DNA of 52,275 nt from assembly GCA_900556555.1 (NCBI GenBank), contig USPF01000004.1:1-52275 (forward strand). The letters are read 5' to 3'. This document shows, piece by piece, positions 370 to 33,095 of the stretch. The DNA is from an uncultured Blautia sp. (GTDB lineage: Bacteria > Bacillota > Clostridia > Lachnospirales > Lachnospiraceae). The notes under the pieces are model-generated. The model searched no databases and was not told where the DNA came from. It worked only from the letters and a program-made list of their open reading frames with translations. Numbering within the stretch: position 1 is the stretch's first letter; each line of letters begins with the position of its first letter. A program made the position numbers and the translations under genes.

Positions 370-667
370 ATAGGCTTGTTATGTAAATTCCTAGATTACA
401 ACCTACTTTTTCACTGCCCAAATAGGCTATGCAAATATAATCTTCTTTTATGTCCTACATTTAAAAACAGCGGATAGGCCAGAATTATTAATTTCCTAAA
501 TCACACCTACTGTCTTAAATCTTTTTGTAGGTGGATTTATCAATTTTTTTGATTTCAGCCTATTTCATTTATTCTTTTGTAGGTTGATAACTTTATATTA
601 ATGATTTCAGCCTATTTCCACTCTTTTTTTGTAGGCCGAGATGCTCTATTCCACAATTTTAGCCTAT
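370..667. repeat. Array of six 52-nt units with alternating TAGG/CCTA elements
   Basis: Three left units have the form ATAGGCY-N25-CCTAC, starting at 370, 422 and 474. Three right units have the mirrored form GTAGG-N25-AGCCTAT, starting at 527, 579 and 631. Units are 37 nt plus a 15-nt spacer, giving an exact 52-nt period, and the two halves mirror each other about position 518.5 with a 16-nt gap between them. The N25 and N15 sequences are mostly different, though GAAAT next to ATAGGCT (minus strand) recurs. TAGG and CCTA centres alternate 31 and 21 nt apart. It lies just downstream of the antiporter stop codon. I do not recognise this as a described element. A protein-binding array or a transcribed set of small hairpins (TAGG with CCTA) are both possible. 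Confidence 0.85.
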
Positions 668-701: not shown

Positions 702-1880
702 TTAACCTTTTTTCAAAAACTTTTTATAGGACAAATCCATAGCGAATGCTCCGGCTGGTGCAGTTAGCACAATGGCAAGTACAGCCACTGTAAGAACAAT
801 TTCACCACATGCAAGACCAAGGGAAAGCGGTATTCCACCAATTGCAGCCTGAACCGTTGCTTTTGGTGTGTATGCCATCATCGCAAATAATCTCTCTTTT
901 TTATCTAAACTTGTACCCAGAAGACAAAGAAATACACCACACATTCTGAAAATCAACGCCACTGCAATAACAATAAGTGCTTTCACCCCAACCTTGCTAA
1001 GATATCCTATGTTTACGGTAGCTCCTACCAGCACAAATAAAAATACTTCTGCTGCCACCCACAATTTCCCATATTTTACAGACAAACGCCTTGCAACGAC
1101 TTCCCGTTTCTTCTGCAATCCTATCCCAATAAACATGATTGCAATTAATGCGGAAAAGGTAATCGGTATGGTAAGATGATCTTCCAGAACTACAAGCAAA
1201 AGGGAAATACTTAATATAATGAGCACTTTTGATGTATCCCGTATGTGTACTTTTTTAAAATAATAAGCCAGGATAACTCCAATCAGGAATCCAATGCCGA
1301 CACCCAGAAATATGGAAATTGGAATATTAATAAAATGAATTACAGATGCACTTTCTCCCTGCATCATTCCAAGAAATGTTGAGAATAAAACAATCACATA
1401 CACATCATCCACAGATGCACCTGCCAAAATCAGTTGTGGAATCCCTTCCCTGACACCATAGCCTTCTTCCATCAATTTTACCATTCTTGGAACCACTACA
1501 GCAGGAGAAACAGCAGCAAGCACTGCCCCCAGGATTGGTGCTTCTAACATGGAAATACCCAGAAGTTTCGGGGCAATCAATAAGATACCCAGAAGTTCAA
1601 GGCTTGCAGGAACAAAACACATGAGTACAGCAGGTCTTCCAATCTTTTTTAGCCCTGACAAATCCAATCCCAGGCCGGCTCTTGTAAGAATAATGATTAA
1701 TGCTATTTTCCTAAGTTCCGCTGAAATTCCAAGGATACTGTCATCCAATAAATTAAGCATATATGGACCAAGAACAATACCGGTAACTAACATTCCCAGC
1801 AAACTTGGCAGTTTCATCTTCTTGCATATCCAGCCTACGGACATCCCAACAAGTAGAATTAACGAGATACTAAGTAACAT
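702..1880 (-). CDS. Cation:proton antiporter, CPA family
   Basis: A 392-residue, very hydrophobic protein with about 11-12 membrane segments and no cytosolic regulatory domain. The sequence fits the monovalent cation:proton antiporter family (Na+/H+ exchanger domain): an early LGMLVTGIVLGPY loop, a VSPAVVVPRM segment near residue 127 and an ASVDDV pair of acidic residues near residue 155, where the family carries its ion-binding aspartates. It would exchange Na+ or K+ for protons across the cell membrane. An AAGGAGG site precedes the ATG. It sits downstream of prfC, with the prfC terminator between them. The family is clear; the ion is not. Confidence 0.85.
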   Translation of the reverse strand: MLLSISLILLVGMSVGWICKKMKLPSLLGMLVTGIVLGPYMLNLLDDSILGISAELRKIALIIILTRAGLGLDLSGLKKIGRPAVLMCFVPASLELLGILLIAPKLLGISMLEAPILGAVLAAVSPAVVVPRMVKLMEEGYGVREGIPQLILAGASVDDVYVIVLFSTFLGMMQGESASVIHFINIPISIFLGVGIGFLIGVILAYYFKKVHIRDTSKVLIILSISLLLVVLEDHLTIPITFSALIAIMFIGIGLQKKREVVARRLSVKYGKLWVAAEVFLFVLVGATVNIGYLSKVGVKALIVIAVALIFRMCGVFLCLLGTSLDKKERLFAMMAYTPKATVQAAIGGIPLSLGLACGEIVLTVAVLAIVLTAPAGAFAMDLSYKKFLKKG

Positions 1881-30344: not shown

Positions 30345-30640
30345 CTACTGATTCTTCAAAAGAAAAACCTCTATGCTGCATTTCTACAACATAGAGGCGA
30401 AATAATTCCGTGGTTCCACTCTACTTGAAAGCATAACTATGCTTTCCACTCATTTCCCATAACGCTGGTTCTGCGTATCCGGCTATACCTGATATCTGCA
30501 TAAGAATCAAATAGTCACCGAATCAGCTCCCGGATGCACCTTCTCAGATTTCTTTTGAGACAGCTTTCAGCCGGTGACTGTCCCTCTCTGAAAAAGAAAA
30601 ACTCTGATACTCTTTCCGTTCTTCGCTTTTTCTTATCTCT
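30345..30640 (-). promoter_or_regulatory. T-box riboswitch leader of cysE-cysS
   Basis: On the minus strand the T-box sequence GAGTGGAACCACGG lies at about 30423-30407. It is followed by a terminator (30399-30362: CCTCTATG paired with CATAGAGG, then T residues). Upstream, AGTCACCG (30579-30572) pairs with CGGTGACT (30520-30513) to close a stem I, with a GGTGCATCCGGGAG loop inside as in other T-boxes. A UGC triplet at 30500-30498 could be the Cys specifier, but I could not fold the loop with certainty. Known T-boxes of this kind read uncharged tRNA-Cys and let transcription continue. Confidence 0.88.
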
Positions 30641-32073: not shown

Positions 32074-32823
32074 ATGAACAAAGATGGGTTAATGACAACT
32101 GCAGAATTTGCCAAACTGTGCCATGTTGAAAAACGCACACTATTTTTTTACGATGAAATCGGTTTACTGAAACCGGAACGTGTTTTAGAGAATCACTACC
32201 GGCTCTACGGAATGAATCAATATCGAAAAATGGATATGTTAAAGGCACTCCAATCCACTGGAATGTCCCTGGAAGAAATTAAAACTCTTATGAATTCCAA
32301 TGACCGTAAGGAAACTCTACATGCGTACCGCACGCAGACACAGCAATTAAAAGAAAAAATTGTGGCAATGCAGGACACCTTATCCTACCTGGATGAACTG
32401 ACAGCATTAATGGATTCCTGGAACACACATGGAGAAAATGTATTGTTCCAGCGGAAAGATAAAGGAAGCTGGCTTCATACGGTTCCTATTCCCCAGCCAG
32501 GAACACCTCTGCAGGTAGATTACCTCACCTATGGTTATCATCTGGGTGTAATCAGCAATGATGCAGAACACATTCAGCCGGATTGCTTGTTCCGCAAAGT
32601 AAAACAGAATGCAGGAAATGCCCGGATGGAAGCCGGTCTGTATGCTGTCATGTTTCAGCGTACACAGGACAATAGAATCGGTACGTCTGCCCAGCACTTC
32701 ACAACCTCTATAAAGGCTTCTGGGACGAACTACAAACCACCTGTCTATATCTCACAGGTATGGCAGGATTGGACTCTTCAGACAAAAGAAACGGTATTGT
32801 GCTTTGAAATCCAAATTTTGTAA
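32074..32823 (+). CDS. MerR family regulator with effector-binding domain
   Basis: 249 residues. Residues 6-75 are a MerR winged helix (TTAEFAKLCHVEKRTLFFYDEIGLLKP), then a coiled-coil dimer helix (about 80-120), and a C-terminal half resembling GyrI-like drug-binding domains (BmrR type). It probably senses a compound and switches on the divergent MATE pump. A GAGG site precedes the ATG. Confidence 0.88.
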   Translation: MNKDGLMTTAEFAKLCHVEKRTLFFYDEIGLLKPERVLENHYRLYGMNQYRKMDMLKALQSTGMSLEEIKTLMNSNDRKETLHAYRTQTQQLKEKIVAMQDTLSYLDELTALMDSWNTHGENVLFQRKDKGSWLHTVPIPQPGTPLQVDYLTYGYHLGVISNDAEHIQPDCLFRKVKQNAGNARMEAGLYAVMFQRTQDNRIGTSAQHFTTSIKASGTNYKPPVYISQVWQDWTLQTKETVLCFEIQIL

Positions 32824-32984: not shown

Positions 32985-33095
32985 AGCCTATTTGTCTTCA
33001 AAATAAGTAGGTGTAATTTCAGAATTAATTAAAGCCCACCTATTCGTGCCTGTGAAAAGGTAGGCTAAAAATCACAAAACAAGATTTTCAACCGA
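32985..33095. repeat. Second, shorter copy of the 52-nt TAGG/CCTA array
   Basis: AGCCTAT at 32985, GTAGG at 33007, a CCTAT element at 33039 and GTAGGCT at 33060 keep the geometry of the 370-667 array: CCTA to TAGG 21 nt, TAGG to CCTA 31 nt, and a 16-nt gap where the orientation flips. A last, imperfect element CCGAA at 33092 fits the same spacing. The 32824-33232 stretch has no gene. Confidence 0.75.

Follow-up and report, generated by a model that had tools for sequence, protein, structure and literature searches.

Intergenic arrays of inverted half-sites with a helical-turn period beside nuclease-like genes in Lachnospiraceae

What kind of element is a run of twelve alternating TAGG and CCTA half-sites in a Blautia genome, and what might read it? 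The run (array 1, positions 371–666) lies in a stretch of 52,275 nucleotides from an uncultured Blautia sp. (GenBank assembly GCA_900556555.1, contig USPF01000004.1), which as a whole we call the window, and its half-sites follow each other at 31 and 21 bp from start to start, with 22 bp at the centre. Here we report what is apparently an undescribed class of intergenic arrays, found beside nuclease-like genes in Lachnospiraceae and having a repeat length in whole helix turns, to which array 1 likely belongs. We consider it probable that these arrays work as double-stranded DNA, which a cognate nuclease reads and probably also spreads, the gene together with its array being autonomous and the arrays of the window passengers.

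An earlier note, made from the letters of this DNA, had described the twelve sites with their 31/21/22 geometry and a mirror centre at 518.5, and both the coordinates and shuffled sequences confirm it. The extended forms are ATAGGC/CCTAC in the left arm and GTAGG/AGCCTAT in the right arm, with the flip at 518.5. The half-site consensus is AAATAGGCTGAAAT, with GTAGG as the other form, and there are also off-register copies (CCTA at 390, 495 and 684, TAGG at 727) absent from that note. Dinucleotide shuffles of the 460-bp segment (n = 20,000) gave chains of at most two sites, against twelve in the array, so the pattern is not equally common in shuffled sequence; equal frequency there is what the note had named as speaking against it. 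With the choice of 4-mer and of the two spacings (8–60 bp) left free, shuffles of this segment reached at most five sites (n = 300), and the three-element pattern had a mean of 0.00 over 100 shuffles of the whole window. A second array in the window (array 2, 32987–33064) is like array 1 in half-site style and geometry.

The note had proposed a pattern search of related genomes, and this geometry does recur, mainly in Lachnospiraceae. A scan for the five-element pattern, with one genome per species, returned 41 stretches, mainly from genomes titled as Lachnospiraceae; some genomes have several arrays each. Two stretches were set aside: L005 (Gracilibacillus), in which a different word is simply repeated in tandem, and L016, a single match in Bifidobacterium, chance-like by eye only. 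Across the 12 array genomes, the three-element pattern gave up to 102 matches, versus 4 for the reversed control (in a 2.1-Mb genome); there were 96 matches versus 2 in G008, and 3 versus 3 in G011, the weakest genome. The TAGG form is patchy, since the four-element pattern was found in two of 397 sampled genomes of one family, the centre genome being one of the two. The letters beside TAGG vary by genome (TAGGACT, TAGGCCT, TAGGCT, TAGGCAG, TAGGGG), and in bin.84 neighbouring arrays of identical 31/21 geometry (L006, L018, L030, L033) carry TAAG/CTTA half-sites instead. Some of these four loci also have hairpins with long stems (about 26 bp) along with repeats of 61 nt, and beside a nuclease gene (L168) there is likewise a 61-nt array; the gaps of bin.84 gather several array families. 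The Pfam-scanned neighbours of the arrays (n = 20, two without any Pfam family) are mutually unrelated and therefore give no functional clue.

An all-against-all comparison of 278 open reading frames (ORFs) from 39 array loci and two pieces of the window revealed one recurrent family, of about 265 residues, in five genomes, and in all five the gene lies directly beside an array. These proteins have a C-terminal PD-(D/E)XK-like nuclease domain, which is related in sequence to PDC-S68, PDC-S69 and HEAT_CxxC_PDDEXK of PADLOC (best E-value 4e-29). The structures nearest to this domain are the nuclease domains of Bax1, Can2, DrdV and XisH, the fold is that expected of the PD-(D/E)XK superfamily, and E164, D195, E210 and H211 are invariant in 74 homologs, with no lysine in the usual place. 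A PDB sequence search with the family gave one match, at chance level. The N-terminal part of the model matched helical bundles (prefoldin, flagellar proteins) and was not used for any inference. Of 5,147 candidates in one search, 1,955 are homologs at E ≤ 0.001, and the family is present in 88 of 299 genomes of one bacterial family at E ≤ 1e-40. Within the array genomes, a profile search located 30 family loci in nine of the 12, with L174 and L179 as weak partial matches. Longer members occur in the array-rich bin.84, on G003:C28 and G003:C5 (L160 and L168), with open frames of 368 and 334 residues.

The association between gene and array extends beyond the discovery set. Using a scan for any inverted 5-mer that alternates at two spacings, with at least five sites, an array was found near the gene in 21 of the first 30 family loci, and in 16 of 25 once the five discovery loci were removed, while the same scan found none in 67 control loci and none in 90 shuffles. 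When further loci were collected by protein alone, 63 of 89 had an array near the gene; these 89 comprise 29 of 30 loci given by the search of the 299 genomes (one being a repeat) and 60 hand-picked among the matches it listed, where the contig leaves space ahead of the gene. No array was found in 20 regions taken arbitrarily from genomes that have the gene. At 56 of the 63 loci the longest array lies upstream (median 145 bp), and at seven downstream. As for the 26 loci lacking a strict array, five have less than 300 bp upstream and ten contain a 4-mer chain, a count made with no background comparison. Half-sites and spacings differ among paralogs, even in one genome (28/34, 29/45, 22/39, 38/26, 30/23 and others), and between genomes a half-site is shared by 14 of 28 pairs with at least 55% protein identity, versus 245 of 3,210 pairs below that level. 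These observations bear on whether the arrays serve the host in nucleoid organisation or chromosome segregation, in the style of parS, BIME or KOPS, the nuclease being incidental. Phased inverted sites would suit a bridging or filament-forming protein, but the distribution is patchy for both the TAGG pattern and the nuclease, and several half-site families coexist in one genome, each adjoining its own nuclease paralog, so that we regard such a role as very unlikely.

The periods of the class are quantised. Over the 63 loci they are 51–54 bp (24 loci), 56 bp (one), 61–65 bp (17), 71–75 bp (16), and 83, 84, 86, 94 and 126 bp (one each), with none at 57–60, 66–70 or 76–82 bp, and they correspond to about 5–9 and 12 helical turns. 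At 10.45 bp the phase coherence R amounts to 0.835, whereas jitter of as much as 5 bp left it at 0.422 or lower in 5,000 sets. The chain finder tolerates 1 bp on one spacing only, which can make chain length dependent on context (identical DNA in L243 and in L314 yields longest chains that differ), and we therefore estimated the periods again in another way, from direct self-matches, which gave R = 0.814, against 0.134 in control segments. The two estimators agree within 1 bp at 56 of the 63 loci, and at the other seven they differ as doubles or halves within 1 bp. At L263 the 5-mer chain repeats at 126 bp and the direct self-matches peak at 63 bp, possibly reflecting two alternating unit types. 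The quantised periods of the class strongly support two suggestions of the earlier note, namely that all sites could face one side of the helix and that the run is a protein-binding array. Placed on the nuclease tree, turn number (5, 6 or 7; 77 rows) changes 17 times, versus 33.5 times when shuffled (minimum 27 in 200); this tree comes from a quick search, with 29 of 79 inner branches weak, the labels of L152–L181 entered by hand and that of L159 assigned by eye. Turn number has thus evolved repeatedly, in part descending together with the protein, and half-sites turn over faster than turn number.

No member of the nuclease family is encoded within the 52-kb window, and the arrays of G294 present the same situation. 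In this genome (searched contig of 2.86 Mb), relatives of the 71-bp array upstream of the nuclease gene L242 are found at 14 further places, one about 8 kb from the L242 array and the others far off. Twelve of the 14 were examined together with some 1.5 kb of flanking DNA to either side; the gene is present in none of them, and nine have a clear array, with a period of 71 or 72. Dispersed nuclease-free TAGG arrays are likewise found in several genomes. For 32 classed nuclease-free arrays (the two of the window, 21 of the 41 stretches and nine G294 loci), the flanking genes are in tandem in 20 cases, convergent in seven and divergent in two, with three at an edge. The half-site style nearest to that of the window is found in G004, which has two dispersed arrays (L007 and L019), both containing an 18-bp linker as in the centre of array 1, and a nuclease gene (L159). 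Just upstream of L159 there are nine TAGG/CCTA sites with 31/32, 21 and 52/53-type spacings; the strict scan did not pick up this array, which is imperfect. As the TAGG-type nucleases are scattered in the tree, we do not claim the reader of the window arrays as an ortholog of L159. Virgibacillus sp. MSJ-26 has four 31/21 arrays (L002, L010, L011, L026) with TAGGGG half-sites, and the nuclease family was undetected in its genome; these arrays have either another reader or a reader that was lost. A plasmid or phage origin of the window array was also considered and rejected, with no match in plasmid or phage records and no pattern match in viral contigs.

Arrays were also compared between related genomes. 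In G002 an array fills the 594-bp gap between leuC and leuD, which measures 2–42 bp in 16 congeners with a full-length match (20 genomes were compared; in one further genome the match, L099, was split, and two others matched through a paralog only). The gap upstream of murD is 447 and 457 bp, with an array, in G002 and G006, and −11 to 92 bp, without one, in nine other species; these gaps run from the BLAST match, and six loci with no matching upstream gene, one misparsed and two partial ones left unread stand outside the nine. The leuC–leuD and murD cases show that arrays can be insertions. Two orthologous array pairs of G002 and G006 have 0 of 96 and 1 of 58 substitutions in the half-sites, 120 of 310 and 28 of 182 in the spacers, and 18 of 121 and 12 of 188 in the flanks. 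Since the half-sites are fixed while the spacers diverge, half-sites and spacing are under selection; part of the spacer divergence may come from the shuffling of tandem units. The units of an array are partly homogenised, as would result from tandem copying, but ordinary tandem duplication, or a functionless chance pattern, is scarcely conceivable in view of the shuffles, the conservation of half-sites relative to spacers and the quantised periods over 63 loci; the view of the earlier note that geometry is conserved here, rather than merely copied in recent tandem events, is upheld by the class-wide quantisation.

At the locus of array 1 itself the picture is different. The protein of the neighbouring exchanger gene has its best matches in Lachnospiraceae, with 80–82% identity, on which basis the window can be assigned to that family, and 18 relatives with an ortholog have no array there. 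The earlier note had counted absence of the spacing from orthologous loci against itself, and this is what is seen at the exchanger locus, whereas half-sites are kept where two species share an array. However, that expectation presupposed vertical conservation, while other arrays of the class appear as insertions. As the genes are arranged differently in many of the 18 relatives, no date can be given for an insertion or a loss at this locus.

The note had also offered RNA hairpins, in a 3′ untranslated region, as a second option, by which the element would stabilise or terminate transcripts. Several arrays do begin shortly past a stop codon, and four stretches folded as RNA surpass all their own shuffles (z = −5.5, −5.4, −7.8 and −8.3), but the window array folds equally well on either strand, as expected of any inverted repeat. 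When half-sites were re-paired within arrays, the partners at 31 or 21 bp were no more complementary than the re-paired ones in 28 of 30 tests, leaving no pair-specific covariation. The two nominally significant tests (21-bp pairs outward, p = 0.013 and 0.018) both come from bin.84 and are not independent, as the loci are related copies. On the strand of the flanking gene, which we assigned from ORFs at 23 loci, G-U exceeds A-C at positions 9 and 11 of the 31-bp pairs (20 versus 8 and 25 versus 8). At the better paired positions 5–8, A-C is instead the commoner (46 versus 30 in the 31-bp pairs, 39 versus 22 in the 21-bp pairs), and over positions 5–13 there is no net G-U excess (G-U versus A-C, 109 versus 112 and 106 versus 101, respectively). 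In addition, helical quantisation of the periods has no reason in RNA. Thus, this option found no support despite the good folding, and we judge it highly improbable.

The mirror symmetry reported for the window array stands, but it is not a general trait of the class, because the units of L012, read by eye, all run in one direction; the long fold-back of the whole array, which is the minimum-energy fold in the window, is not general for the same reason. An Rfam scan of the window at gathering scores returned a T-box and tRNA only, with no described RNA family at the arrays; the T-box leader (RF00230, 116 bits) is at 30390–30632 on the minus strand. An inverted repeat, GCAGGCAACACAA/TTGTATTGCCTGC, with T runs nearby, lies at 275–325, in the gap that separates array 1 from the start of the next gene on the minus strand. 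It is possibly a terminator, in which case array 1 would belong to the 3′ untranslated region of the exchanger gene; a terminator scan did not call it.

Table 1. Parts of the two arrays in the window and the genes next to them.
Feature	Coordinates	Strand	Remarks
Array 1, left arm, 3 units	371..509	.	TAGG 371, 423, 475; CCTA 402, 454, 506; spacings 31/21
Array 1, central linker, 18 bp (22 bp start to start)	510..527	.	Arms mirrored about centre 518.5
Array 1, right arm, 3 units	528..666	.	TAGG 528, 580, 632; CCTA 559, 611, 663
Array 2, four half-sites	32987..33064	.	CCTA 32987, TAGG 33008, CCTA 33039, TAGG 33061; spacings 21, 31, 22
Na+/H+ exchanger gene (PF00999)	702..1880	-	Neighbour of array 1, outside the system; stop codon 36 bp from array
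MerR-family regulator gene	32074..32823	+	Neighbour of array 2, no link shown

In the explanation we favour, the window array would be one copy of a double-stranded DNA element, itself non-coding and with no nuclease gene, with half-sites that alternate in orientation and would all meet a cognate protein on one face of the helix, the units being whole turns apart. Its reader would most likely be a member of the PD-(D/E)XK-like family of about 265 residues, which may bind the array as units stacked in register along one face. Cutting or nicking by the nuclease could then drive repair-based copying of units to new intergenic sites, as well as tandem expansion. The gene with its array would be the autonomous form, arrays of the window type would be passengers, and the genome of the window probably holds, or held, a cognate gene outside the 52 kb. 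As to what such elements are, we tentatively propose, with rather less than even confidence, a selfish repeat of a kind new to prokaryotes: the nuclease would assemble on one face of its own phased array, and cutting would force repair-based copying and thereby amplification. The result would be satellite-like DNA in bacteria, whose half-sites and turn number co-evolve with the enzyme, with several families in parallel in one genome.

The main alternative is that the family are regulated defence nucleases, with the array as operator or tether. The nuclease would be held on the arrays or sensed through them (by tethering, titration or autoregulation), in a regulatory or anti-phage role, and the spread of arrays would be a side effect of recombination. 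The upstream position of the longest array in most loci is as expected for an operator, and the relation of the nuclease domain to the candidate defence proteins PDC-S68, PDC-S69 and HEAT_CxxC_PDDEXK points the same way. Nevertheless, nuclease-free arrays occur beside unrelated genes (the 20 neighbours) and within operon-like gene pairs, there are dozens of units per genome, and paralogs of one genome differ in both half-site and turn number, as expected of parallel selfish families, so that we consider this alternative unlikely.

The selfish double-stranded DNA element proposed here can be set beside several known systems. A CRISPR array was rejected, since the half-sites alternate in inverted orientation with gaps of 17–27 bp and are not direct repeats, and no cas family is found among the 20 neighbours. 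A miniature inverted-repeat transposable element or insertion sequence derivative would have terminal inverted repeats and a target-site duplication; insertions are seen here, neither clean ends nor a duplication having been defined at them. The PDC-S68 models describe proteins of about 1,200 residues, and their likeness to the present family is in the sequence of the C-terminal domain. We know of no nuclease partner for the BOX elements of Streptococcus pneumoniae. These elements resemble our arrays in being intergenic modular repeats that have a tandem middle part of variable number; alternating half-sites or a helical period do not appear in the passages of PMC3049150 that describe them. 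A literature search of open-licence papers found no nuclease-linked phased array with helical quantisation.

The closest parallel, in way of life, is with REPIN/RAYT systems (REPtrons). According to PMC3116915, PMC8266576 and PMC3733652, these combine a single enzyme gene with numerous short inverted repeats, which are intergenic, dispersed in trans and for the most part located where genes are tandem or convergent; the enzyme co-evolves with the repeat. G294 shares their combination of dispersed copies and an enzyme gene with its own copy. A RAYT/Y1 transposase was rejected as the partner of our arrays, as PF01797 occurs in five of the 12 array genomes, is absent from G008 with its 96 matches, and is not found among the 20 neighbours. 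The enzyme here is PD-(D/E)XK-like, whereas RAYT is HUH/Y1. The DNA also differs, in that long arrays of short half-sites with a helical-turn period stand against the GTAG-tagged hairpins of REPINs: half-sites of other paralogs have no GTAG, and the null covariation tests do not indicate imperfect hairpins. The hosts are Lachnospiraceae, and Firmicutes or clostridia were not found in passages of PMC3733652. The reading proposed here, if true, would hint at what a very large and still unnamed protein family does, and would supply enzymes and targets in a natural series, across which the phasing (5, 6, 7 or 8 helical turns) and the recognition sequence vary while the fold stays. It would also make the origin and persistence of interspersed repeats in compact genomes directly testable, in a non-HUH, double-stranded-DNA counterpart to REPIN/RAYT.
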